DNA of 38,916 nucleotides, taken from an uncultured Parcubacteria group bacterium (lineage in GTDB: Bacteria > Patescibacteriota > Minisyncoccia > UBA6257 > 2-01-FULL-56-20). Every line of letters starts with the position of its first letter. Position 1 is the stretch's first letter. Below, in pieces: positions 997 through 31,061 of the stretch. Made by a program: the position numbers and the translations under genes. The notes beneath the pieces were generated by a model that had not been told where the DNA came from, ran no database searches, and saw only the letters and a program-made list of their open reading frames with translations. The stretch covers positions 1 through 38,916 of the forward strand of contig CAJAQL010000022.1 of NCBI GenBank assembly GCA_903944135.1, in the 5' to 3' direction.

Positions 997-1563
997 ATGG
1001 AATTACTGAAAGGAAATCGTACGGCGATATCCGGCGCGAGATCGTATAGGGCTCTCGCGGAAGTTGCCTTGATGGATTTGCGTCAATTGTCCGAACCGGT
1101 GGCGATGGTTTGCGGACCGATCAAATCCGGTGGCGCGTTGCTCAGGAAAGACTGCGATCCGGCAGAGGCGAAAAAAAGAAATCGCGCGAAACTCAACGGC
1201 GTCATATCCTTCCTCTCCAGGGAGCGCGCGATCTTTAACCAGTTGCCTTTTCTTGATCGGGCCGAGGAGCTCAGGACCGGAAAGAGATTGCGGCGCAAAT
1301 GGACAGGCGAATCTGTCCGCGACTATGTACTTTCTCTTTTTTCTCGTGACGGAGGAAAAAGAGAAAGCACAAGCGACAGAGATCATCTTCGGAACGAATT
1401 TCATCTTCCGATTCTGGCGTCCGGTTTGATCGGCACCATATACTTCCTTGATGGATGGAAGGATTCCGTCGGTTCTCGCTGGTATCATGCACAGGCCAAA
1501 GAGCTCGGCGTTGAGATCCGGCATGTCATTCCGATCCTTAAAAAGACCGCCGCAAAAAGGTAG
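997..1563 (+). CDS. Putative DUF4406 / nucleoside deoxyribosyltransferase-like protein
   Basis: The 188 aa product shows the layout of the nucleoside 2-deoxyribosyltransferase / DUF4406 superfamily. An early strand plus glycine loop (MVCGPIKSGG) is followed by a middle segment with IFNQLPFLDRAEEL. The C-terminal part reads LASGLIGTIYFLDGW, then DSVGSRWYHAQAKELGVEI, which resembles the family pattern of 'place of many choices, GW, S.G...E...A...G'. The usual catalytic Glu after S.G is not obvious: the position reads SRWYHAQA. Activity is therefore doubtful. ATG 997 is chosen because GGAGG lies about nine bases upstream; a TTG at 979 would extend it by six codons. The gene has its own promoter and a strong terminator. 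The family call comes from pattern memory only. Confidence 0.5.
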   Translation: MELLKGNRTAISGARSYRALAEVALMDLRQLSEPVAMVCGPIKSGGALLRKDCDPAEAKKRNRAKLNGVISFLSRERAIFNQLPFLDRAEELRTGKRLRRKWTGESVRDYVLSLFSRDGGKRESTSDRDHLRNEFHLPILASGLIGTIYFLDGWKDSVGSRWYHAQAKELGVEIRHVIPILKKTAAKR

Positions 1564-1581
1564 TCAACAGTTCTTGTTTTT

Positions 1582-1615
1582 GGCGTCCGACCTCGTGTCG
1601 GACGCCGTTTTTATT
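1582..1615 (+). terminator. Intrinsic terminator
   Basis: GGCGTCCGAC (1582-1591) and GTCGGACGCC (1597-1606) form a perfect 10-bp stem with a 5-base loop, followed by GTTTTTATT. It ends the 997-1563 transcript. Confidence 0.85.
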
Positions 1616-1627
1616 GCGGTCGGCTTA

Positions 1628-1755
1628 CTCCACCTGAAGCGAAAGACCTGCGCTTCAGCGCAGAAGACGAAGCGGAGGGTGGAGAATCTCCCAAGTCGCA
1701 TTGTTACGACCGTAGGGTCGTGCGCATGGGCATCCCTTTTGGAATGCCCAGGGCT
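1628..1755. repeat. Cluster of nested hairpins downstream of the GT39-like gene
   Basis: CTCCACC (1628-1634) pairs with GGTGGAG (1678-1684) around an inner perfect hairpin CTGCGC-TTCA-GCGCAG (1648-1663). Two further hairpins follow: ACGACC-GTA-GGTCGT near 1705-1722 and GGGCATCC...GGAATGCCC near 1729-1750. They fill the gap between two convergent genes. They may protect or end the minus-strand transcript, but no T-tract is visible in that direction. Confidence 0.45.
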
Positions 1756-1770
1756 TGAGATCGGGGAGAT

Positions 1771-3699
1771 TTACAGATGATAGACGAAGATCGAAGTGCC
1801 GATCCTGAAATCGGGCGAAGGGACATTGCCCATGCCGGGCGCCGGCGGGCGGAGTGCGGTGAGCCACGAATAGGAATCATTTGCATTCCGCGTTTGTCCT
1901 TCGCCAAGAGGCTGGGTTGCCCCTTCAAGCGTGTTCACGGAAACCGCGAGCCAATGGATGTTCTCATCGGCTGGGTTCCCCTTTGATGATGACCAATCAA
2001 TTTCCTTTGCGCCAAGCTCATATTTTGGATTGCTGCCGCCGAAATAGTCGACGGCTATCTTGTCGACTTCGGGATGGATATTGACCCATGCCCGGAACCG
2101 CAGGAGATCTTGCCCCCAGTCATAGTTCGAATCGGTCACATAATGATAGCCGTTCATGGTTCCGCCGCCGATCTCATTGAAATAGGAAAGGAAATAAGGC
2201 GCGGTAAAAAGCGTTTCGCAGAAGAGCCAGACAAGAAGGAATACCAAGATGCTGTATTTTATGAATGATGCGACGATCGATGTTGCCATGGTCGCGACGA
2301 TGTTTTGAGCCGATGTAATGCGGGAAAGATCGAATCGCATGATCCATTTTTTCCAGACGCCCGAGGAAAGGATATAGATGAAGGGGACAGTGGGAATGAT
2401 ATGCCGGATGCCGATGTTCAGGGTGCTATGCATGCTATACCCCCAATAGAGGACAATGAATGATATCATCGTGAACTCCGCGGGATTGACGCTCACATAA
2501 TCGAAAATATTATGAGCAATGTGCCAGTGGGATGCACGCGCTTTTTCCCACATCCACCAAAGTGCGAGAATGAGCGCTGTTGCTACGATAATGAGAGTCG
2601 GCAATGGCTCTTTCAAAAGATAGAGGAGCGGGAAATAGATCCACCCGCCGGAACCGACGATGTGTCCCATAAAATAGATCGTGTTGCCGCCGTCGGCTCG
2701 CTGAAGGACCATGAGGATGCCGAGGGCATATTGCGCAACGGGACGAAGGATCGGACTCTTTGCCATCCAGATCGTAAGGTCAGCAAGGCATCGTGTGCCG
2801 CGGCACATCTGTCCTGCGGGCGTGGGGCCGGATCCGAACGAGTTCAGGATGAAGGTCGTGTCGGAGACCTGCTTCGTGATGGGATAATTGAAAGTGAAAA
2901 GGAAATAGATCGGATAAACGATACAGGCATAGCCGATGAGAAAAATGAAAATAAGGCTTTTCAGATAACGCCATCCGGCGCGCCAGATATCATGATGCGA
3001 TTTCGTGACAATATCCCGGATCCATAGGACAAGAAGGACGAAAATAAAAAGCGGCACGAGAAGCGGCGTGGAAAATTTGGTGACCTGGGCGATGCCGAAG
3101 GCGATCCCGGCAAGCCACAGATTTTTTATCGTCGGTGATTCGATGAAACGTATGAAGAAATAAGTTCCGAGCAGGATGCCGAATGCCGCGCCGACGTCAG
3201 TGGTCACGTAATGCCCATGGGCAAGGACAGTAGGGGACAATCCAAAGAGGAACGCCGGGAGCAATGCCCACCATGCTCCCATGAGCCGTCGTGCAAAGAA
3301 ATAGACGAGAATGATCGTGAGGATCGTGAGCAGGATCGGCATGATCCGTGCGGTTCGGATGATTGCATTCGCGTCATTGCCTGATTCATAAAGGAACTGT
3401 GTTCCCATATTCCACTGTGCATTCACCTGGTTTTGCCATGCGTCGCTCTGGGTCGGGAATGTCGGGTTCAGAAAAAGAACCGGCAGCATGGCGAGCGCTT
3501 TCACGAGCGGAGGATGTTCGGGATTCAAACGATAGTCCAGATTGTGCACGTAGCCATAACCGGCGGGAATGTGCGCCAATTCGTCGTCGATGGCGGAATC
3601 TGTGCGCGATGCCCAGAGCATCAAGCCAAAAGAAACAATACAGATGAGTGCAAGCGTTATTCCCGCGAACCGAGAGGATATCTTTTTTAAAATAGGCAT
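1771..3699 (-). CDS. Membrane glycosyltransferase, GT39/PMT-like
   Basis: The 642 aa polytopic protein begins with a membrane segment, then a large outer loop carrying the acidic motif DDELAHIPAGYGYVHN and DYRLNPEHPPLVK. This matches the first-loop Asp-Glu and HPPL signature of dolichyl/undecaprenyl-phosphate-mannose transferases (GT39, ArnT-like). About ten more hydrophobic helices follow, with a soluble C-terminal part (NYDWGQDLLRFRAW) also typical of this group. It would transfer a sugar from a lipid-phosphate donor to protein or envelope glycan on the outer face of the membrane. A longer frame starts at 3738, but ATG 3699 is preferred. It sits exactly six bases after TATAAT (3706-3711 on the minus strand), the arrangement seen at many starts in this window. 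The acceptor is unknown. Confidence 0.8.
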   Translation of the reverse strand: MPILKKISSRFAGITLALICIVSFGLMLWASRTDSAIDDELAHIPAGYGYVHNLDYRLNPEHPPLVKALAMLPVLFLNPTFPTQSDAWQNQVNAQWNMGTQFLYESGNDANAIIRTARIMPILLTILTIILVYFFARRLMGAWWALLPAFLFGLSPTVLAHGHYVTTDVGAAFGILLGTYFFIRFIESPTIKNLWLAGIAFGIAQVTKFSTPLLVPLFIFVLLVLWIRDIVTKSHHDIWRAGWRYLKSLIFIFLIGYACIVYPIYFLFTFNYPITKQVSDTTFILNSFGSGPTPAGQMCRGTRCLADLTIWMAKSPILRPVAQYALGILMVLQRADGGNTIYFMGHIVGSGGWIYFPLLYLLKEPLPTLIIVATALILALWWMWEKARASHWHIAHNIFDYVSVNPAEFTMISFIVLYWGYSMHSTLNIGIRHIIPTVPFIYILSSGVWKKWIMRFDLSRITSAQNIVATMATSIVASFIKYSILVFLLVWLFCETLFTAPYFLSYFNEIGGGTMNGYHYVTDSNYDWGQDLLRFRAWVNIHPEVDKIAVDYFGGSNPKYELGAKEIDWSSSKGNPADENIHWLAVSVNTLEGATQPLGEGQTRNANDSYSWLTALRPPAPGMGNVPSPDFRIGTSIFVYHL

Positions 3700-3705
3700 A
3701 CAGAA

Positions 3706-3711
3706 ATTATA
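3706..3711 (-). promoter_or_regulatory. -10 element of a leaderless promoter (GT39 gene)
   Basis: TATAAT on the minus strand, followed by TTCTGT and then the ATG at 3699. The spacing predicts transcription starting at or next to the start codon. No clear -35 is seen. Confidence 0.65.
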
Positions 3712-3847
3712 GAACCTATCCCGAATATCCTCCAGCATCCATGGTTCGATCCTGTTTTGCGGCCAGACCTAAAAAATCTGCATCAAAGCCCTGAGAGAGG
3801 TTCTTGCGATATGAACTTGCACGCTTTAAGTATTGCTGATGTTTTGG

Positions 3848-3853
3848 TAGAAT
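3848..3853 (+). promoter_or_regulatory. -10 element of a leaderless promoter (pilO-like gene)
   Basis: TAGAAT preceded by TGG (extended -10), followed by TAATCA and the GTG start at 3860. Confidence 0.6.
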
Positions 3854-3859
3854 TAATCA

Positions 3860-4393
3860 GTGGACAAGAAGGATTTCAAAAAGAAAATGTGGATCGGGAT
3901 AGGGATCATTGCCGGAAGCATGATCGTTTTCGGAATGGCCCTTTATTTCTTTGCGGACAATATTCAGGAACAAGCCAATGCCATTGCGGGAAGCCGTGAC
4001 GATATTGCAAACCAGAGTGCCGCTATCAATTCCTACAGCAACCTCAAGGCGAGCGCCGCAGAAGCTGCCACCTATCAAACTGCCATGGACAAACTTCTTG
4101 CAACGCAGGATAGTCTTATTGCGTTTCCATCGGAGATCAATAGCATTGCATCGAATGATGGCGTGAGCATGACATTCTCATTTGACGGCGATCCTGTTCC
4201 GGCGAGTTCGAATACGGTGGGATACGTAGGTTTCAAGCTCGGCATGACGGGTTCATTGGATGGCATAACATCGTTCCTTAGGGACATAGAGTCTTCCACG
4301 CCGATCCTGCTTTCCAAAATAGATTCTTTCGACATAACCCGGAGCGGGTCGTCATATACGCTTGCGGCGGCGGGAAGAGTATTTTTCAAATAA
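3860..4393 (+). CDS. PilO-like type IV pilus assembly protein
   Basis: The 177 aa protein has a short basic cytoplasmic N-terminus (MDKKDFKKK), one membrane helix (IGIGIIAGSMIVFGMALYFF), a helical periplasmic or outer stalk rich in Ala/Gln (residues about 34-80), and a small C-terminal alpha/beta domain. That domain contains VSMTFSFDGDPV, VGFKLGMTGSLDGITSFLRDIE and PILLSKIDSFDI, which is the PilO fold. PilO aligns the inner-membrane platform of type IV pili. The start is GTG, six bases after TAGAAT. It leads a three-gene unit with a small membrane protein and prfB. No pilM or pilN is adjacent, although a prepilin-like gene lies at 28550. Confidence 0.75.
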   Translation: MDKKDFKKKMWIGIGIIAGSMIVFGMALYFFADNIQEQANAIAGSRDDIANQSAAINSYSNLKASAAEAATYQTAMDKLLATQDSLIAFPSEINSIASNDGVSMTFSFDGDPVPASSNTVGYVGFKLGMTGSLDGITSFLRDIESSTPILLSKIDSFDITRSGSSYTLAAAGRVFFK

Positions 4394-5742: not shown

Positions 5743-5835
5743 CTGTCATTCCCGCGCAGGCGGAAATCCAATATTGGAAGCATGGATCCCCGCCGGAGCC
5801 CGTACCCGCGCGCGCGGACACGGGGGCGACAGAAA
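5743..5835. repeat. Dispersed palindromic repeat, inverted pair
   Basis: CTGTCATTCCCGCGCAGGCG at 5743 is followed by a second, inverted and degraded copy (GGATCCCCGCCGG ... GGGGGCGACAG, to about 5832). The copies face each other across a 13-base spacer. This is the commonest repeat type of the window. Confidence 0.7.
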
Positions 5836-6392: not shown

Positions 6393-6699
6393 ATTTCCGC
6401 CGCAAGGCGGAACTCAATAAGGGCGAATGGTGGATGCCTTGACTAGAAAAGGCGATGAAGGACGTGGCGTAGCGACGATACGCCTCGGGGAGGTGCGTAG
6501 CAACCTGTGATCCGAGGATTTCCGAATGGGGTAACCTAATGAAGTAAACCTTCATTGCTCGGCGTAAGCCGAGAGCGCACCCGGTGAAGCAAAACATTTC
6601 AGTAACCGGAGGAACAAAGAATAAATAATTATTCCCTGAGTATCGGCGAGAGAAACGGGAACAGCCCAAACTAAGGTTCTGATTTATCAGGACGTTAGC

Positions 6700-6800
6700 G
6701 TTATAAGGGAGGAACGCTGCTTTGCTTATCGCAAAGCGCAGAGCACTTCGGTGCTTCGCGTTTCGCGATTCGCGAGGAAAGGAGGAGTAAAAAAATCGTT
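6700..6800 (+). other. Expanded helix 25 of 23S rRNA
   Basis: E. coli has a hairpin of about 20-25 nt here. This sequence has about 100 nt, including hairpins such as GCTTTGC-TTATC-GCAAAGC and GAGCAC-TTCG-GTGCTT. Helix 25 is a known site of intervening sequences in other bacteria. It is not clear whether this one is excised. Confidence 0.5.
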
Positions 6801-6960
6801 AGTTAGCCAAAGCCGTCTGGAAAGCGGCGCCAGAGCGGGTGATAGCCCCCTAGGCGAAAACTTACGATCTCCTTAGTTTTTCTACTTGAGTACTTCGAGG
6901 TCAAACAGTCTTGAAGGAATTTGGCAGTACTATCTGCTAAGGCTAAATACTTTTCTAGAT

Positions 6961-6997
<37 letters not shown>

Positions 6998-7722
6998 CAG
7001 GCCGGTGAGGCCGATGAAATAGAATCTGAAACCATTTGTCTACAAGGAATTGAACCTCGAACGGCTACGGAGCAATCCGCGGACGAGAGGAACAATGTGC
7101 CTATTGAAGAATGAGCCAACGACTTATTTTGTGTTGCTTGTCTAAGCGCGTATAGCGCAGAGGCATAGGGAAACCGAGTCTTAATAGGGCGAATACGGCA
7201 GCATGAGATAGACCCGAAGCCAGATGAGCTTGCCTTGGCCAGGTTGAAGTTCCGCGAAAGCGGAATGGAGGACCGAACTGGTGGGTTGTTCAACACCCTC
7301 GGATGAGCTGAGGTAAGGAGTGAAAAGCTAATCGAATCTGGTAATAGCTGGTTCTCTCCGAAATAGTTTTAGGACTAGCGGTATGGTAAACCAATGGGGG
7401 TAGAGCACTGGATGATTCGTAAAGACCGAAAGGCCGACGCATCAATCAAACTCCGAATACCATTGAGAGATCCCATACTAGTCAGACTGCGGGGGCTAAG
7501 CTCCGTGGTCGCGAGGGGAAGAGCCCAGATCATCATCTAAGGTCCCTAAATTTACGCTCAGTGTAAAAGGTAGTTTTCTGCCATAGACAGATAGTAGGTT
7601 GGCTTAGAGGTAGCCATCCTTTAAAGAGTGTGTAACAACTCACTATTCGATGGCAGGAAGCGCCGAAAATGTACCGGGGCTAAAGCGTAATACCGAAGAT
7701 ATGGGTGCGTGGACTTCACAGA

Positions 7723-7919
7723 GGAAAATCCTCAAAAGTGTGTGGGGCTGTAGCTCAGTTGGGAGAGCGCTCAACTTCTGCTTTAGGTTTTTGTTTAGAT
7801 CGTTCCGGAACGATTGAAACAGAAGCTTCGAAGTTGGGAGTCAGCGGTTCGATCCCGTTCAGCTCCACCACATATTTGTTCTTTTCATGGTGAACCTTCT
7901 TTTCTGAAGGTTCACCTCT
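7723..7919 (+). other. Intervening sequence in 23S helix 45
   Basis: GCGTGGACTTCACAGA (7707-7722) pairs with TCTGTGAAGTCCATGC (7920-7935), a 16-bp stem that replaces the tip of helix 45. The 197 bases inside are absent from ordinary 23S. They hold a small hairpin (7723-7731), a tRNA-Ala-like unit (7744-7870) and a perfect 11-bp hairpin (7889-7916). Helix 45 is an established IVS site (Salmonella and others), where RNase III removes the insert and leaves a fragmented but working 23S. The long flanking stem suits that processing. Confidence 0.8.
7744..7870 (+). tRNA. tRNA-Ala-like element inside the 23S gene, with enlarged anticodon arm
   Basis: The cloverleaf parts are complete. The acceptor stem GGGGCTG (7744-7750) pairs with CAGCTCC (7860-7866), including the G3-U70 wobble that marks alanine tRNA. 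The D-arm is GCTC...GAGC, the T-arm AGCGG-TTCGATC-CCGTT (7843-7859), then A73 and an encoded CCA (7868-7870). The anticodon arm is abnormal: a 9-bp stem (7770-7778 with 7830-7838) carries 51 bases in place of the usual loop. The insert includes the 16-base palindrome ATCGTTCCGGAACGAT (7799-7814) within a longer hairpin (7788-7825). CTTC occurs at both edges of the insert (7775-7778, 7826-7829), as a target duplication might. TGC, the Ala anticodon, stands at 7779-7781 but not in a normal loop position. It may be an intron-bearing tRNA, a tRNA-mimic cleaved by RNase P/Z to release the IVS, or a dead insertion. Confidence 0.7.
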
Positions 7920-9340
7920 TCTGTGAAGTCCATGCGCGGTAGGAGAGCATTCCGGCCTGCAGTGAAGGCGTACCCGTGAGGGATGCTGGAGCGGCCGGAA
8001 GAGAAAATGTTGGCATGAGTAACCACAATCCCAATGAGAAATTGGAACCCCGAAAATCCAAGGTTTCCGTGGCACTGGCAATCAACCACGGGTTAGGCGG
8101 CCCTAAGCCCATGCCGAAAGGCGCAAGCGATGGATAGCTGGTTAATACTCCAGCCCACCTACTGTGTTATCCCTCTTGTGCGAATGAGATAAGTAAACGT
8201 GCCTTATTGGTTTGGCATTGTTTGTGCGAAGTTCAAGCGAGCACCGACAGAAGGTCAGGAATTTACCTGGTCGACGTTTATGAAGTGCATTCCAAGAAAA
8301 GCATGAGGGTCACGCACGGCAGGTTCCGTACCGTAAACCGACACTGGTGGATAGGGCGAGAAGCCCAAGGGGAACGAGTGAATCATCGTTAAGGAACTCG
8401 GCAAAAAAGCGGCCGTACGTTAGCTATATGGCCTGATCCTCGCAAGAGGATCCGCAGCGAAAGTCTCCCTAGCAACTGTTTACCAAAAACACAGCTCCCT
8501 GCTAACTCGCAAGAGGATGTATAGGGGGTGACGCCTGACCGATGCGAGAAGGTCAAGACCGGGTGTGGTGCCGCAAGGCATTGCTCACTGGTTCAAGCCC
8601 TCGTCAATGTCAGCGATAACTATAATCGTTCTAAGGTAGCGCAATTCCTTTTCGGGTAAGTTCCGAAGCGCACGAAAGGCGTAATGACTGGGGAACTGTC
8701 TCAACGATGTGCTCGGTGAAAATGCGATTCCAGTGAAGACGCTGGATACCTGTAACGGGACGAAAAGACCCCGGAAGCTTTACTGCAGCTTGGTATTGAT
8801 TTTAAGGTTTTTCTGCGTAGCGTAGTGGTGAGGATTTGAAGCGTTGCTTTTGGGTAACGTGGATCCGACAATGAAACAGCCATCTTTAAAACTTTAACGT
8901 CTAACCGGTTGGGAGTCCGAAAGGTAAACCCAACTGAGACAGTGCTTGGTGGGCAGTTTAAATGGGGCATTTTCCTCCTAAAGAGTAATGGAGGAGTTTA
9001 TTAAGGTCAGCTTAGCCCGGATGGAAATCGGGCAGGACGTGCAAACGCAAAAGCTGGCTTGACTGCAAGACCTACAAGTCACGCAGGCACGAAAGTGGAA
9101 GTTAGTGACCCGACGACTATATTAAGTATTTCTTTATTGATGTACTAATTCTTTATAGAAAGGTCGGAGACACCGGACAAAAGCTACTCCGGGGATAACA
9201 GGCTAGTGAAGTCCGAGCGTCCCTAGCGACGACTTCGCTCGGCACCTCGATGTCGGCTCGCCGTAGCGCGGGGGTGGAGAAGCTCCCAAGCGTTTGGCTG
9301 TTCGCCAATTAAAACGGCACGTGAGCTGGGTTCAGACCGT

Positions 9341-9681
9341 CAACGAAGATAACCCATTCGAGGCAAGATTTGTTTTTAGAAACGAAATCTACTGTTAAAA
9401 AGAAACGGCGGCCTCCAACAGCAATGTTGGAGTGAAAAAATCGACTCATATCGGTGAAGCCCTCATAGAATCTGACCTGGTTCTAGAGGAGAATACCGAG
9501 GGAAGTCGCACCTGGAAGAAATTTCATGTGTTGACCCCCTAGAGACTTGATCCTTCGGGATCGGATGGACGGAACGTCCATAACACGTCGATCATCCATT
9601 GATGGCTCGAGATTTATCTTGGGCTTGTCGAAGGATGGTGGTATAGTCCAAAGCGTCAGTAATGACGAGAATTGAAAATTG
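9341..9681 (+). other. Group I intron in 23S rRNA near the peptidyl-transferase centre
   Basis: Joining ...CAGACCGT (ending 9340) to CGTGAGACAGG (from 9682) restores the universal 23S segment around A2602; the break corresponds to about E. coli position 2593. The insert follows group I rules: the exon ends in U and the intron ends in G (9681). A GAGACTT segment (9542-9548) pairs with the hallmark GGTATAGTCC (about 9649-9658) as P7, and a P9-like hairpin CGTCA-GTAA-TGACG follows (9664-9677). Further hairpins are seen at 9366-9390 and 9412-9431, and between the two P7 strands (GATCC-TTCG-GGATC, GGACG-GAA-CGTCC), as in subgroup IA introns. There is no open frame for a homing endonuclease in its 341 bases. 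The guide pairing (P1) is not firmly identified. Confidence 0.8.
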
Positions 9682-9842
9682 CGTGAGACAGGTTGGTCTC
9701 TATCTGTTACAGGCGTAGTGCGAGCGAAAGCTCGCCAAATACTTGAGGGGAGTTGGCCTTAGTACGAGAGGACTGGGCTGAACATACCTCTGGTTTACCG
9801 GCTTTGGTACCAACTGAATTGCCGGGTAGCTATGTATGGAAG

Positions 9843-9876
<34 letters not shown>

Positions 9877-9977
9877 ACCCCAAGATTAGGTATGCGTGAT
9901 TTCGTGGAAGACTACCACGTTGATAGGCTCTAAGTGTAAGGCTCGCAAGGGCTTCAGCTGAGGAGTACTAATAATCC

Positions 9978-10001
9978 GCCAACCATCCCAATGCTGACTT
10001 C
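9978..10001 (+). other. 23S rRNA processing stem, 3' arm
   Basis: Complement of 6369-6392. It follows directly after the conserved 3' end segment GAGTACTAATAATCC. Confidence 0.85.
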
Positions 10002-10230
10002 GAAAGAAAGGCGAACTGTTGCAAAAACAGTAAGCCACAACTCTACAACCCCACGTCGCTCCTAGGGAGCTATGCGGGGCAAACAAATATCAAAAAACAA
10101 GAGATCTTTATCTTTCGTTCCCGCGTAGGCGGGAACCCAGAGTGGATCTCAAAACGGTTTTTTGATGTCTGATCGTACCGTTCTGTCATTCCGTGAAAAA
10201 TCGGAATTCAGAAAACAGAAAGAATTTTTA
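10002..10230 (+). other. 23S-5S spacer with palindromic repeats, no gene
   Basis: I see no tRNA or protein gene here. It contains a CCCC...GGGG hairpin with inner GCTCC/GGAGC (about 10050-10079), a palindromic repeat CGTTCCCGCGTAGGCGGGAA (10115-10134), a degraded copy at 10182-10212, and the 5' arm of the 5S precursor stem (10155-10175). Confidence 0.55.
10115..10140. repeat. Dispersed palindromic repeat
   Basis: TTCCCGCGTAGGCGGGAA core, same family as copies at 5743, 27803 and 28457. Confidence 0.65.
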
Positions 10231-12801: not shown

Positions 12802-15024
12802 TTACCACTTCTCGACCATCAGCATTTTGCCGGGCCGGAAGATATGGTAGATCTCCTCGGTGATGAAGGGCACGAAGGGATGGAGCATTTTAAGTGAATC
12901 GAGAAGAAGCTGTTCGAGAACGGCATAGCTTTCCGCTTTTTCTTCGTCAGTTCCACTTTTGAGTTTTTCTTTTTCGGTTTCAATAATGACATCTGCGAAT
13001 TCGTGCCAGACGTAATGATAGAGCTTGTCGGCTGCGAGATGGAACTCGAAGTTATCGAGATGACCGGAAATTTCTTGCTTGAGTGCGGCGATATCCGTCA
13101 GATATTTTTCATGCGTTTCGGAGGAAGCACGGACCCTCGCCTCCGCGAGGGCGACAGAATCTACCGGGGAGACAGATGATGCGGCGGGCTTGTTCATTTC
13201 GATGAACCGTGCGATGTTCCACAGCTTCGTCGAGAAGTTGCGATAGCCGCGGACGCGGTCTTCGGAAAGTTTGACATCGTTGCCGGGCGCCGCGCCGATG
13301 ATAAGCGAAAGCCGTGTCGCATCCGCGCCATATTTGTCGGCCATGGTCAGGGGATCGATGATGTTGCCGAGCGATTTCGACATCTTTCGTCCCTTATCGT
13401 CGCGAACGAGGCCGTGGAGATAAACTTTACGGAAAGGAATCTCGCCCATGAGGCATGTGGACATGAGGATCATGCGCGCGACCCAGAAGAAGATGATATC
13501 GTAGCCGGTTTCAAGAACGGAGTTCGGGAAATAGTTCGCGAGATCGTTTTCCGGCCCGGGCTTGCCCCGCGAAGCTCCATCAGGAGCGGAGTGGGGCCAG
13601 CCGAGCGTCGAGAACGGCCAGAGGCCAGACGAGAACCAAGTATCGAGCGTGTCGGGGTCCTGAATCCAGCCCTCGCCCTGCGGCGCTTCAATGCCGACGT
13701 AAAGTTCTTCGCCCTTGGTCCAGACGGGGATCTGATGCCCGAACCATATCTGGCGCGAAATGCACCAGTCCCGCAGGTTGTCGATCCAATTGAAATAGAT
13801 GCGTTCGAAACGTTCCGGAAGGATCTTCACGTTGTCATCCGCGACAGCAGATTTCATGAGTTCCTTCAGTGTTTTTTCCTGTCCCTTCAATCTGCCGTTT
13901 TCCACTTTGAACTTCCGGTTGACCTCAATGAACCATTGCAGTTTCGGTAGAGGCTCGATGATGCCCCTGGTCCGTTCTGCGGTCGCGACGTTCTGTGATA
14001 TTTCTTCTTCTTTTTCGATGAGGCCGCGCTTGCGCAATTCCTCCGTGACGATCTCGCGCGCTTCGGCGGCTTTCTTGCCGAACACGAGTTCGTTTTTGAT
14101 GGTCATCTTGCCGTGTTCGTCGATGATCTGCTTCAGGGGAAGATCGTGCCGCTGTGCCATTTCCCAGTCGATTATGCTGTGTGCCGGCGTGACGCCCAGG
14201 GCACCCGTGCCGAAATCTTTTTCAACGGCTTCGTCTGAGATGATTTTCACATGGATCTTCGTTCCGCAGAAATCGGCGTCATATTCCCTGCCGACGAATT
14301 CTTCATAGCGCGGATCGTTCGGATGTACGGCGACGGCGGTGTCGCCGAATTTCGTTTCGACGCGGGTCGTGGAGATCGCGATCGGGAAATTCTTGTCGTA
14401 GCGGAACGTGATGAGCTTCGCCTTGCGTTCTTCATAGACGATCTCGTCATCGGAAATGGTCGTTTGTCCTTTCGGATCCCAGTTCACGACGCGATTGCCG
14501 CAATAGATGAGGCCCATGTCATACATCTTTTTGAATGCCGTACGGACTGCGACTTCGCGCTGTTTATCGAGCGTGTAAGCTTCGCGGCTCCAGTCGAGCG
14601 ACGCGCCCATGCGTTTCGTCTGGCGGACGATCGTATCATGGCTTTCCTGAGCGAACGCGCGAACGCGTTTCAAAAATTCTTCGCGGCCGAGATCATGGCG
14701 ATTTTTACCTTCTTTTTTCAGGATATCCTTTTCTACTTTCGATTGCGTGGCGATCGCGGCATGGTCGGTACCCGGGATCCAGAGCGTGCGTTTTCCCTGC
14801 ATGCGCGCATAGCGGACCATGATGTCTTCGATGGCGAGCATAGCGGCGTGGCCCATGTGGAGCGTGCCGGTGACGTTCGGCGGGGGGAGAACGACGCAGA
14901 ACGGTTCAGCGTGCGGGTCGGTAATGCCTTTTTCTATACAGACATCCGGATCAAACAAACCGGAATCTTCCCAAAGCTTTTCGATGCGGGCTTCGACTTC
15001 GTTGATGTCATAACGGGACTCCAT
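12802..15024 (-). CDS. valS: Valyl-tRNA synthetase, short form
   Basis: Class I synthetase that charges tRNA-Val. HIGH appears as HMGH (residues 56-59, in PNVTGTLHMGHA), KMSKS at about 546-550, and the CP1 editing domain is present (STTRVETKFGDTAVAVHPND). At 740 aa it is well below the usual 880-950: the protein stops at FRPGKMLMVEKW, right after the anticodon-binding domain, so the C-terminal coiled coil is gone. Two inserts are repeat-derived: PHSAPDGASRGKP (about 475-488), between the conserved LGWP and the FYP-like segment, and VSPVDSVALAEARVRASSE (about 612-631). ATG 15024 is chosen over an upstream frame to 15141 because the protein begins at MESRYD and the promoter lies at 15034-15062. 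That leaves a leader of only about two or three bases. Confidence 0.93.
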   Translation of the reverse strand: MESRYDINEVEARIEKLWEDSGLFDPDVCIEKGITDPHAEPFCVVLPPPNVTGTLHMGHAAMLAIEDIMVRYARMQGKRTLWIPGTDHAAIATQSKVEKDILKKEGKNRHDLGREEFLKRVRAFAQESHDTIVRQTKRMGASLDWSREAYTLDKQREVAVRTAFKKMYDMGLIYCGNRVVNWDPKGQTTISDDEIVYEERKAKLITFRYDKNFPIAISTTRVETKFGDTAVAVHPNDPRYEEFVGREYDADFCGTKIHVKIISDEAVEKDFGTGALGVTPAHSIIDWEMAQRHDLPLKQIIDEHGKMTIKNELVFGKKAAEAREIVTEELRKRGLIEKEEEISQNVATAERTRGIIEPLPKLQWFIEVNRKFKVENGRLKGQEKTLKELMKSAVADDNVKILPERFERIYFNWIDNLRDWCISRQIWFGHQIPVWTKGEELYVGIEAPQGEGWIQDPDTLDTWFSSGLWPFSTLGWPHSAPDGASRGKPGPENDLANYFPNSVLETGYDIIFFWVARMILMSTCLMGEIPFRKVYLHGLVRDDKGRKMSKSLGNIIDPLTMADKYGADATRLSLIIGAAPGNDVKLSEDRVRGYRNFSTKLWNIARFIEMNKPAASSVSPVDSVALAEARVRASSETHEKYLTDIAALKQEISGHLDNFEFHLAADKLYHYVWHEFADVIIETEKEKLKSGTDEEKAESYAVLEQLLLDSLKMLHPFVPFITEEIYHIFRPGKMLMVEKW
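13131..13161 (-). repeat. Palindromic repeat in frame inside valS (second insert)
   Basis: GGACCCTCGCCTCCGCGAGG and the following GCGACAGAATC form the same outline as the intergenic GATTCTGTCG...GGATCC repeats, with a perfect core CCCTCGC-CTCC-GCGAGGG (13134-13151). It encodes part of SVALAEARVRAS, a segment not expected in this family. Confidence 0.6.
13558..13602 (-). repeat. Palindromic repeat in frame inside valS (first insert)
   Basis: Read on the minus strand it begins GGCTGGCCCCACTCCGC and ends GGAGCTTCGCGGGGCAAGCC. It matches the element in pgk (25038-25076) over most of its length. It encodes PHSAPDGASRGKP, an extra loop directly after LGWP. Confidence 0.75.
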
Positions 15025-24870: not shown

Positions 24871-26046
24871 ATGATTCGTTTTCTCAGTAAGATCGGCGCA
24901 AAGAAGCTGCAGAAAAAGACCGTACTTTTGCGGCTCGATTTCAATACCGAAGATGATTGGCGGATGTGCGCCGTTCTTCCAACGATCAAATTGTTGTTAA
25001 AGAACGATTGCAAAATTATAATTTTGAGCCATCGCGGCCGGCCCCACTTCGCCGAAGCGGCTTCGCGGGGCAAGCCTCTTAGATTAAGCGTGGCGGATGG
25101 AAAGTTCAGCTTAAGGAAGGATGCCGTCGAGCTTGTGCGACTTTTGGGGCGCGAAGTTGCGTTCATTGATCATTTTGATTTCGCCCGCATCAAAAAGATG
25201 GTCGCCAGTGCGCCGCAGGGATCGATCTTTCTTCTCGAAAATCTTCGATTTATAAAAGGGGAAGAAAAGAACGATCCGAAGTTCGCGGAAAAGCTTGCGT
25301 CGCTCGGAGATATTTATGTGAACGACGCTTTTGCGGTTTCGCATCGGGCAAACGCTTCGGTTGCGGCGATAACGAAATTCCTCCCGAGCTATGCCGGTCT
25401 TGAACTGGAAGCTGAGATCACGCATCTTTCGCGGGTCATGATCCGGCCGAAGCGGCCGCTCATTATGGTCGTCGGCGGGGCAAAAGTTTCCGATAAGTTG
25501 GATGTTCTGCGCTATTTCCGCGATAAAGCGGATAAGTTCCTTCTTGGTGGCGGTCCGGCAAATACGATGCTTGCTGTTCGTGGCGTGGAAGTCAAGAAGT
25601 CATTGAAGGATATGAGCGATATCGGCGAGATCAAAAAAATCGCTTGTTATTCCAATATGATCCTGCCGGTCGATTATGCGTGGCGCAAGGATGCGATCGT
25701 GGATATCGGCCCGAACACCAGGAAGCTTTTTATCAGGGAGGTCGGCGGGGCGGCAACGATCGTCTGGAGCGGTCCGCTTGGCTTGATCGATGTGAGGCCT
25801 TACGGTGAAGGCTCTCTTGCTGTTGCGAAGGCAATCGGCAAAAATAGAAAAGCACTTTCTGTCGCGGGCGGCGGAGAAACGGTGATGTTCATCAAAAAAT
25901 CACGGCTTGATAAGAAGTTCACTTTTATTTCGACGGGCGGCGGCGCGATGCTTGATTTTCTCGCCGGCAAGAAACTTCCGGGCATTGAAGCGCTGAAAAA
26001 TTCAAAAAATCCCATGCCAAGCCTGTCGAGGAATTTCGAACGATGA
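24871..26046 (+). CDS. pgk: Phosphoglycerate kinase
   Basis: The 391 aa enzyme transfers phosphate from 1,3-bisphosphoglycerate to ADP. Motifs: LLRLDFNT (substrate loop, about 19-26), LSHRGRP (about 51-57), LLENLRF, VNDAFAVSHRANAS, MVVGGAKVSDKL, FLLGGGPANT, VWSGPLG (about 296-302), and the nucleotide-loop GGGETVMF. The C-terminus has STGGGAMLDFLAGKKLPGIEAL. The loop after GRP carries HFAEAASRGKP (about 58-68), which is encoded by a palindromic repeat also present in valS and between genes. Such a loop is not expected in Pgk. Five bases before ATG a weak AAGAAT-AAAATT arrangement matches the leaderless pattern only poorly; GGAAGA is also present. Confidence 0.93.
   Translation: MIRFLSKIGAKKLQKKTVLLRLDFNTEDDWRMCAVLPTIKLLLKNDCKIIILSHRGRPHFAEAASRGKPLRLSVADGKFSLRKDAVELVRLLGREVAFIDHFDFARIKKMVASAPQGSIFLLENLRFIKGEEKNDPKFAEKLASLGDIYVNDAFAVSHRANASVAAITKFLPSYAGLELEAEITHLSRVMIRPKRPLIMVVGGAKVSDKLDVLRYFRDKADKFLLGGGPANTMLAVRGVEVKKSLKDMSDIGEIKKIACYSNMILPVDYAWRKDAIVDIGPNTRKLFIREVGGAATIVWSGPLGLIDVRPYGEGSLAVAKAIGKNRKALSVAGGGETVMFIKKSRLDKKFTFISTGGGAMLDFLAGKKLPGIEALKNSKNPMPSLSRNFER
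25038..25076 (+). repeat. Palindromic repeat in frame inside pgk
   Basis: It runs from GGCCGGCCCCACTTCGCC to GGCTTCGCGGGGCAAGCC. It matches the valS element (13558-13602) and an intergenic copy (about 10421-10451). It encodes PHFAEAASRGKP in a surface loop. Confidence 0.75.
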
Positions 26047-26767: not shown

Positions 26768-26824
26768 GTCGTCCCCGCGAAGGCGGAGGTCCAGGAATAG
26801 GGAATCCGGATCCCATTTCAATGG
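26768..26824. repeat. Palindromic repeat pair
   Basis: CTGTCGTCCCCGCGAAGGCG at 26767 followed by GGATCCCATTTCAATGGGAT (26811 on), with inner GGTCCAGG. Confidence 0.6.
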
Positions 26825-26840
26825 GATGATGCTACGAATT

Positions 26841-27827
26841 ATGACTTACGATCTTTATTTTCATAATGATTTTGACGGCTGGGCTTCGGCGGCGGTCATG
26901 CTGTCGTTCCTTGAAGGCCGCGGCGACCATATCGGTCATTTCACTCCCGTGGATCACGATCTTCAGCCCCAATGGCTCGATGATGCTTTTTTTAAGAAGC
27001 ATCATCTCTTCAAGGGAAAACGGAACGCGCCCATCGTGCTGGATTTCCCGTTTCATCCGGGCACGGCATTTTGGTTCGATCATCATCCGACGGCTTTCAA
27101 AAAAAAGGCATGGCAGAAGAAATTCCACGAAGACGCCGAACATGCCTACCGGCCTCGATATTTCTCGTGTTGCCATATGGCGTACGCTACGCTCAAAAGG
27201 AATTTCAAATGGCAGCCGCCTGCGTATTTGGGTGGATTGATCATTTGGCTCGATATCATCGACGGCGCGCGATATACTTCGGCAAAACAGACGATTCTCA
27301 TGAAGGAGCCGGCTTTCGCGATCGACAGCTTCATTGACGCACAGAAGGGAGACTCCAAAAAAGCAGAATGGCTGGTTCGGCGCCTGGCAGCAACGTCCTT
27401 TAAGGAGGTTGCTGGGATCCCGCGGATCGCGGCGGCAGGCAGGCGGGCGCGGCAACGTGCTGTTCGGGACGTTGATTTCTATCGAAAAAACCTTGCCGTG
27501 ATCGGAAACGCCACGTTGATCAATCTTATTGGTCATTCCGATAAAATGCTTCGCTATGCGCCTTATTATCTTTTTCCGAAACTGCGCTATAGCGTGCGCA
27601 TAAATATGAAAGGATCGTTCTATCATATCGGTGCCGGAGAGAATCCATGGTTTACCAGAAAGGGGAGGATACATATCGGGCAGCTGATGAAGAAATATGG
27701 CGGCGGTGGTCATGCTTCTGCCGGCGCGGCAGAGTTTAAAACGAAAGAGGAGATGGAAAAAGCGAAGGAAGAAATTATTGCTGTGTTAAATAAAAAATTT
27801 CCGTCGTTCCCGCGCATGCGGGAATGA
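26841..27827 (+). CDS. DHH/DHHA1-family phosphoesterase
   Basis: The 328 aa protein has the DHH phosphoesterase layout: N-terminal HNDFDGWASAAVML (metal-binding Asp residues), LDFPFHPG and FWFDHHPT (DHH motif, about 80-83), and C-terminal DHHA1 with the RNA/phosphate-binding GGGGHASAGAAEF (about 292-304). Relatives hydrolyse nanoRNA, pAp or cyclic dinucleotides. A GGDEF protein is in the window, so a link to nucleotide signalling is possible but unproven. The last residues (FPSFPRMRE) and the stop codon come from a palindromic repeat at 27801-27831, so the native C-terminus seems to have been rewritten. Two upstream ATGs (26826, 26829) are possible starts; 26841 begins at the conserved strand. 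Confidence 0.8.
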   Translation: MTYDLYFHNDFDGWASAAVMLSFLEGRGDHIGHFTPVDHDLQPQWLDDAFFKKHHLFKGKRNAPIVLDFPFHPGTAFWFDHHPTAFKKKAWQKKFHEDAEHAYRPRYFSCCHMAYATLKRNFKWQPPAYLGGLIIWLDIIDGARYTSAKQTILMKEPAFAIDSFIDAQKGDSKKAEWLVRRLAATSFKEVAGIPRIAAAGRRARQRAVRDVDFYRKNLAVIGNATLINLIGHSDKMLRYAPYYLFPKLRYSVRINMKGSFYHIGAGENPWFTRKGRIHIGQLMKKYGGGGHASAGAAEFKTKEEMEKAKEEIIAVLNKKFPSFPRMRE

Positions 27828-29879: not shown

Positions 29880-30887
29880 ATGAAGATTTTATTTTATCGC
29901 AGAAAAAAGAATGCCGTCCCGGCGCGAATGACTTCATCTTGTGCATTTTCTTCTGTCGTCCCCGCGAAAGAGGGGATCCAGAACGGATCACGAAAATACT
30001 GGATTTCCGCTCTCGCGGGAATGGCAATTGGTTTCAGTATTTTCATTATATTTTTCTTGTTTTTCCCTTCTTCTGTCTTTGCCGTGACGAATATCAGCGC
30101 AACGACCACTCAGCATTGGGCATGGAACGATCTGATCGGGTGGATGAATTTTTACAGCGAGGCGAATATCAATGTGACGCCGACGCAGCTTACGGGTTAC
30201 GCCGATTCATCGATCGGTCCTATTTCGCTTGATTGCGCAACCTCGCCGGCTGGTAATATTTGTTCTTCGCAAAACAGCAATTACAAAGTGACCAATAGCG
30301 GCGGTGGATCACTCTCGGGATGGGCATGGAACGATTCGGTCGGTTGGATCAGTTTTAGCTGTCAAAATACCAGTGGTTGCGGCACGTCGAACTACGGAGT
30401 TTCGATCTCGAACGGAGTTTTTAGCGGATGGGCATGGAATGACGTGATTGGTTGGATCAGTTTTAATTGTTCCAATACCGGTGGTTGCGGCACGTCGAAC
30501 TACAGCGTGGTGACAAGCTGGCTGCCGGTCGCGGCGACCGGCATGCTCGATTCGGCGACTTTCGATACGTCATCGACCGGGGCGCAGCTGAATTCCGTGG
30601 TTTGGCAGGGATCGATGAATGGCTGCGCGACATGCGGGGTCGCGTTCCAGTTTGCCGCATCGAACAGTTCGAGTGGGCCATGGACATTTACCGGTTACGA
30701 TGGAACGGTGAACACTACCTATCCTCAAAATCCAGCCAATAGTGTCCCAAATACGCCGATTCCGATCACGAATTATTCCGCATATTCAGGGTACCGTTAT
30801 TTCCGTTACCGCGTCATTTTGACGACGGACATTGCGCAGAGCGTCAGCCCGAAGGTGACCAGTATTTCGGTAGATTGGAGTCCATAG
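29880..30887 (+). CDS. Secreted protein with WAWN(D)xIGW repeats
   Basis: The 335 aa protein has a basic N-terminus, a hydrophobic signal or anchor (about 49-70, ending PSSVFA), then repeats built on WAWNDxIGWxxF. Three copies are seen: WAWNDLIGWMNF, GWAWNDSVGWISFSC, GWAWNDVIGWISFNC, with CGTSNY spacers and paired cysteines. This family is common on CPR cell surfaces; function unknown. The C-terminal half (about 205-335) is a beta-rich domain (YSGYRYFRYRVILTT...VSPKVTSISVDW). Residues about 25-48 are encoded by a palindromic repeat pair (29953-30024), which pushes the signal helix away from the start. ATG 29880 is four bases after the prepilin stop, so the genes form an operon. Confidence 0.82.
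   Translation: MKILFYRRKKNAVPARMTSSCAFSSVVPAKEGIQNGSRKYWISALAGMAIGFSIFIIFFLFFPSSVFAVTNISATTTQHWAWNDLIGWMNFYSEANINVTPTQLTGYADSSIGPISLDCATSPAGNICSSQNSNYKVTNSGGGSLSGWAWNDSVGWISFSCQNTSGCGTSNYGVSISNGVFSGWAWNDVIGWISFNCSNTGGCGTSNYSVVTSWLPVAATGMLDSATFDTSSTGAQLNSVVWQGSMNGCATCGVAFQFAASNSSSGPWTFTGYDGTVNTTYPQNPANSVPNTPIPITNYSAYSGYRYFRYRVILTTDIAQSVSPKVTSISVDWSP
29953..30024 (+). repeat. Palindromic repeat pair inside the coding region
   Basis: CTGTCGTCCCCGCGAAAGAG ... GGATCCAG faces CTGGATTTCCGCTCTCGCGG ... GAATGGC. It is the same pair structure as at 28457-28529, but here translated in frame. Confidence 0.8.
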
Positions 30888-30925: not shown

Positions 30926-31061
30926 GGCTCCTGGATACCGTTTTTCAACGGGATGATGAAAATGTCGTGGTTCCGGTAGCGGGACCATCTGTGCTTTCGA
31001 TCCTGGTCTTTTAATAAAGCACGGGTCCTCCGCCGCCGCAGAGGATGACGAAATACATTTT

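Follow-up and report, generated by a model that had tools for sequence, protein, structure and literature searches.

In-frame inserts from two unrelated palindromic repeat families in the valyl-tRNA synthetase gene of a Patescibacterium

The valyl-tRNA synthetase gene (valS) of the Patescibacterium considered here contains two inserts that derive from two unrelated families of palindromic repeats, each found genome-wide and each read in frame, which bears out the proposal of a preliminary description of this DNA that valS holds two repeat-derived inserts. The window analysed is the whole of contig C22, 38,916 nucleotides long, and belongs to a genome (G000) of 0.86 Mb in 38 contigs that is approximately 91% complete. 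Both families are dispersed, have covarying stems and lie mostly between genes with some copies in essential genes, and the sites concerned are empty or differently occupied in most relatives. The inserts are very probably REP-type palindromic elements that have multiplied in the genome and become fixed in frame in tolerant loops. The gene and its two elements are as follows.

12805-15024, minus strand: valS, valyl-tRNA synthetase, 740 aa (Pfam tRNA-synt_1 1.2e-122, Anticodon_1 2.9e-22)
13125-13156, plus strand: family 2 element (AAGCACGGACCCTCGCCTCCGCGAGGGCGACA) of the GTC-tagged REP type (insert 2), identical to the copy at C38:6537-6570 (L002)
13558-13600, plus strand: family 1 element, a CCCCGCGAAGCTCC-ATCA-GGAGCGGAGTGGGG hairpin (insert 1), shared with the congener G001

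The valS reading frame remains open upstream as far as 15141, and the best match of its product (ValRS) among named relatives is 72% identical, with Parcubacteria and Patescibacteria records as the nearest. An AlphaFold2 model of the protein has a mean pLDDT of 90.5, and the closest solved structure is that of another ValRS (1gax, TM 0.87), so that the fold is kept. Values below 50 are found only at residues 482-489 and 617-623, one stretch lying within insert 1 and the other immediately ahead of the repeat-made residues of insert 2. The tolerance that had been suggested for valS is thus seen as two variable loops on an intact fold. Structure prediction had also been put forward as a way of seeing both inserts on the surface; here the model confines its least confident stretches to the inserts and their border, where pLDDT is lowered partly by the small number of aligned rows, and since missing rows alone depress it, a low value is no proof of exposure. 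The modelled segments are probably unusual and flexible. A third candidate repeat in valS, at KVENGRLK (13867-13911), was rejected, having no second copy among the loci searched.

Insert 2 is read on the minus strand of valS as VALAEARVRA within SVALAEARVRAS, in the linker ahead of the anticodon-binding domain; it had been described at 13131-13161, where the element is indeed present, with its true limits slightly offset at 13125-13156. It is identical at 34 of 34 bases to the copy at C38:6537-6570, and BLAST finds 12 further places at E<0.01. A covariance model of family 2 gives 121 candidate hits in G000 at E<=1; of these, 67 in the retrieved loci reach E<=0.001. At E<=1 it also has 113 hits in G012, a member of another genus, eight in the congener G001 and one in G006, totals that are to be read as candidate counts because REP subtypes related to family 2 are among the weakest hits. 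Among 63 distinct aligned copies, 97.8% of the stem cells are paired, 54 cells have changed on both sides, and the covariation score (0.546) exceeds that of every one of 500 shuffles and of every slid version; five pairs of the stem were modelled and the remainder taken from the alignment. The conserved ends are AAGCAYGG on one side and GACA, which is TGTC on the other strand, opposite it, most aligned copies ending in GACA or GACG (complementary strand TGTC or CGTC). The unpaired tail, CCRTGCTT, is CCG or CCA followed by TGCTT, and the stem starts with RY/RY, which is AT in many copies and GC in that of valS. Inverted pairs have their GTC tags outward, with 15 head-to-head pairs against a single tail-to-tail one. 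Two non-coding copies of family 2 lie elsewhere in the window.

5778-5831, plus strand: non-coding family 2 copy whose loop is enlarged (model E 1.8e-4)
31017-31050, plus strand: family 2 copy, non-coding (model E 8.3e-5)

Insert 1 follows the LGWP motif and is read as WPHSAPDGASRGKP. Its family is unrelated to family 2 and is characterised by a conserved GCGAAGC...GCGAAGTGG with an internal GAA/GAA mismatch. Across 26 copies 98.1% of the stem cells pair, seven of the 11 pairs have changed on both sides and the covariation score, as in family 2, lies above all 500 shuffles. The model finds 12 hits in G000 and 10 in the congener G001; relatives of insert 1 are found at 25038-25077 of the window and on contigs C29 and C7. 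Neither family was matched by Rfam at its gathering threshold in the loci searched. The other family 1 features of the window are these.

10045-10086, minus strand: family 1 copy, non-coding, between the 23S and 5S rRNA genes (model E 0.0014)
24871-26046, plus strand: pgk, phosphoglycerate kinase, with a family 1 element inside (Pfam PGK 1.8e-100)
25038-25077, minus strand: family 1 element in pgk, encoding RPHFAEAASRGKP in the loop after SHRGRP

The pgk copy is read in the same frame as insert 1 (RPHFAEAASRGKP and WPHSAPDGASRGKP, respectively), in a loop that is shorter in most relatives and that in G001 is long and different. Three other pgk matches (L277, L278 and L281, from G017, G006 and G044) are each listed with one in-frame stop. 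The window also holds palindromes of another REP-like type, TCGTTCCCGCG..CGGGAA, at 5746-5766, 10115-10135, 26769-26789, 27804-27824 and 29956-29976. The 23S rRNA gene at 6406-9982 measures approximately 3577 nt against a model of 2925 positions and probably contains an inserted element or intron; within it, at 7744-7867, is a tRNA-like Rfam match of 47.8 bits at which ARAGORN makes no call.

Alignment to the closest relatives, which the preliminary description had proposed, reveals that insert 1 is missing from most of them and that no family 2 copy occupies site 2 in any relative examined. Insert 1 consists of residues that are extra relative to most relatives, the loop after GWP being short in nearly all, and long loops occur there only in G001, in a few relatives with other loops and in G020. 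In G001 the insert stands at the same place, is longer and has a second repeat-like unit behind it; since the insert is common to two species of the genus, it predates the present one. The condition that both segments be ancestral and of random DNA sequence, named at the outset as what would refute the proposal, does not describe these data, although insert 1 is older than the species. In G004 the loop at site 1 has only weak simple-repeat matches in its own genome. The valS of G020 (L048, ORF 1186-4170, plus strand) is enlarged in this GWP loop by well over 100 residues (DLKIYGEDIFRALVNGTKRIETRAG...), which resemble a small separate domain and have no Pfam identification at E<=0.001. A distant relative (CAIUOX010000023.1, L195:4416-4452) has HSADASQGKP at site 1, close to insert 1 as protein and hardly so as DNA; tested for repeat origin, this loop scored 5.8 bits (E 2.2), a weak match, and may be a decayed copy or a case of convergence.

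At site 2, length and content of the linker vary throughout the relatives. The linker of G000 exceeds that of its congener by about 5 residues and those of several others by about 8-12, against about 11 residues encoded by the element; there is no clean empty site, so loss or replacement of native linker residues is also involved. A target-site duplication could not be demonstrated for the elements. The same linker is built of GAATGG-type repeats in G007, with 63 other places in that genome, and of a TGTC-tagged palindrome in G040, with nine other places, so that, at the level of DNA, different repeats are seen to fill it in three lineages (G000, G007 and G040). The site 2 segments of G001, G008, G012, G014, G016 and G020 have no further copy in their own genomes at E<=0.01. 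At a third site in valS, G012 carries a family 2 element read as AVPAKAEIRA, which its congener G041 is without. In G007, EWRMENG-like segments are encoded by the GAATGG-type repeats twice in valS (L032) and also in enolase (L296), and coordinates put further places of the repeat inside an ileS-like gene or beside it.

Copies of family 2 are also found in frame in other genes. In G000 these are cca (the CCA-adding enzyme), trmD and enolase, the last (L154:1170-2405) containing a complete inverted pair in frame and being about 18 residues longer there than its closest relative; in G012 they are tsaE, ileS and valS, ileS having been checked solely for its position between domains. The preliminary description had spoken of frequent insertion, and insertion does recur across lineages, but only a handful of events are seen per genome. 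Copies of family 2 are strongly depleted in genes, with 8 of 67 inside called genes in the loci fetched, against 81% coding bases, with gene boundaries and coding fraction taken from a simple gene finder. Five of the eight are in four Pfam-confirmed genes (valS, cca, trmD and enolase, which has two). A binomial test of this depletion gave a P of 5e-35 when run on 7 of 66 copies, the filter as stated giving 8 of 67 and the same conclusion; the figure describes these loci and does not amount to a designed test, because they were picked for having a copy.

The eight intragenic family 2 copies use four different reading frames, and there is therefore no codon-phase rule, contrary to the sensitivity to codon phase that had been considered; for family 1, valS and pgk agree in frame, but two genes are not enough to establish a rule. 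Openness in all six frames was considered as an adaptation and rejected. Shuffled sequences are open in all six in 43% of cases for the family 2 element, in 22-34% for the main family 1 forms and in 2.6% for a single longer form; since shuffles are often as open, and the family 1 form carried by valS is not open in all six, no special fitness for coding is indicated.

We infer that the elements have spread from their near-identical dispersed copies and from the difference between G012 and G041. They would multiply in the Patescibacterial genome, settling mostly between genes, through copying of the hairpin DNA by a putative mobilising enzyme, and selection would remove insertions that break genes and leave those that lie in frame in loops. 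The two inserts would have become fixed in valS by falling, in frame and free of stop codons, into loops able to accommodate additional residues. The data support such a passive account, which does not require the protein to benefit.

Rather than landing passively, the elements could prefer certain sequences or genes, with valS a true hot spot. Three valS sites are occupied by two palindromic families across two genera, other repeats have entered the gene in additional genera, and both insert 1 and the pgk copy are preceded by GGCC and share a frame; however, hits are easier to recognise in long conserved genes and the intragenic sites of family 2 share no frame, and we consider targeting unlikely. 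A functional role, in which ValRS benefits from, or is controlled by, the extra loops or a hairpin of the valS transcript, is more improbable still. Insert 1 has been kept in two species of the genus, longer in G001, and strong local mRNA hairpins are predicted, but relatives fill the same loops with other families, frames and peptides, many have no insert, and outside the event shared by the genus no peptide is conserved. Chimeric joins at short repeats might be feared in a metagenome-assembled genome of 38 contigs, yet nine genes in three genomes read through the junctions in an open frame, insert 1 is common to two separately assembled species and the same relatives match both halves of valS, which makes an assembly artefact very improbable. 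Finally, within the order both sites are variable in sequence and in length, as ordinary fast-evolving linkers are, but a chance resemblance to repeats is refuted by the repeat counts and has a negligible probability given the exact 34-base match, E-values near 1e-11 for both elements in their models and a control allowing 3 mismatches, in which the family 2 pattern has nine genome hits and its reverse none.

Because congeners differ in the genes hit, they serve as natural replicates in which to follow how repeats insert, how they are tolerated and whether the peptides they make are later put to use, and repeat-made residues become recognisable in annotation and structure work. It is possible, though we are doubtful of so broad a statement, that several unrelated types of repeat feed, repeatedly and independently, the same loops of the same essential enzymes across the Patescibacteria, with repeat capture a main source of new protein loops in these reduced genomes and the loops of ValRS natural landing sites.

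In comparison with known systems, both families have features of REPs. REPINs, which are accompanied by RAYT transposases (PMC3116915), share with the present elements the inverted pairs of short palindromes and the many dispersed copies, but not the tag, which is GTAG in REPINs, GTC in family 2 and lacking in family 1. The RAYT/Y1 transposase domain (PF01797) had no match in G000, G001 or G012 and was present in 6 of 25 genomes, in assemblies that are incomplete (G000 approximately 91%). The family 1 hairpin (CCCCGCGAAGC..GCGAAGTGGGG) resembles REPs generally in its size, dispersed copies and covarying stem, and differs in its GAA/GAA mismatch and its ends: none of the 26 aligned copies has a terminal GTAG or CGTC tag, and insert 1 is placed in neither superfamily because both are missing, no named family having been matched here. 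No earlier report of REPs in Patescibacteria or CPR was found in the open-licence literature.

The architecture of family 2, judged from its sequence, is that of a CGTC-type REP element. Members of the CGTC superfamily have a terminal unpaired CGTC, TGTC or CCTC motif, a stem of 8-9 bp beginning with complementary AT at positions 1-2, a loop of 4-5 nt and an unpaired tail with the consensus CCA; head-to-head dimers predominate, no associated transposase has been found and copies are reported within genes, tRNA synthetases among them (PMC3733652). Family 2 agrees in its GTC tag (TGTC being an allowed variant), covarying 8 bp stem, 4 nt loop, unpaired CC tail, dominance of head-to-head dimers, lack of a transposase and in-frame genic copies, some in tRNA synthetases. 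It differs in a tail extended by a conserved TGCTT and in its host, whose phylum is outside the five of that study; its stem begins with RY, which is the expected AT in many copies, rather than with near-invariant AT pairs. The same superfamily counts the Rickettsia elements RPE-4 and RPE-6 as members (PMC3733652), and with these and RPE-1 the present elements share in-frame palindromic repeats in protein genes that are essential to a bacterium with a small genome, although their sequence is different and most of the examined copies lie between genes. As in Rickettsia, elements are present in frame and absent from orthologues, in valS, pgk, enolase, cca and trmD and, in G012, in tsaE, ileS (by position only) and valS. 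Repeats within genes, known from Rickettsia and some Proteobacteria, are thus extended to the Patescibacteria, where a single essential gene has been hit several times independently.
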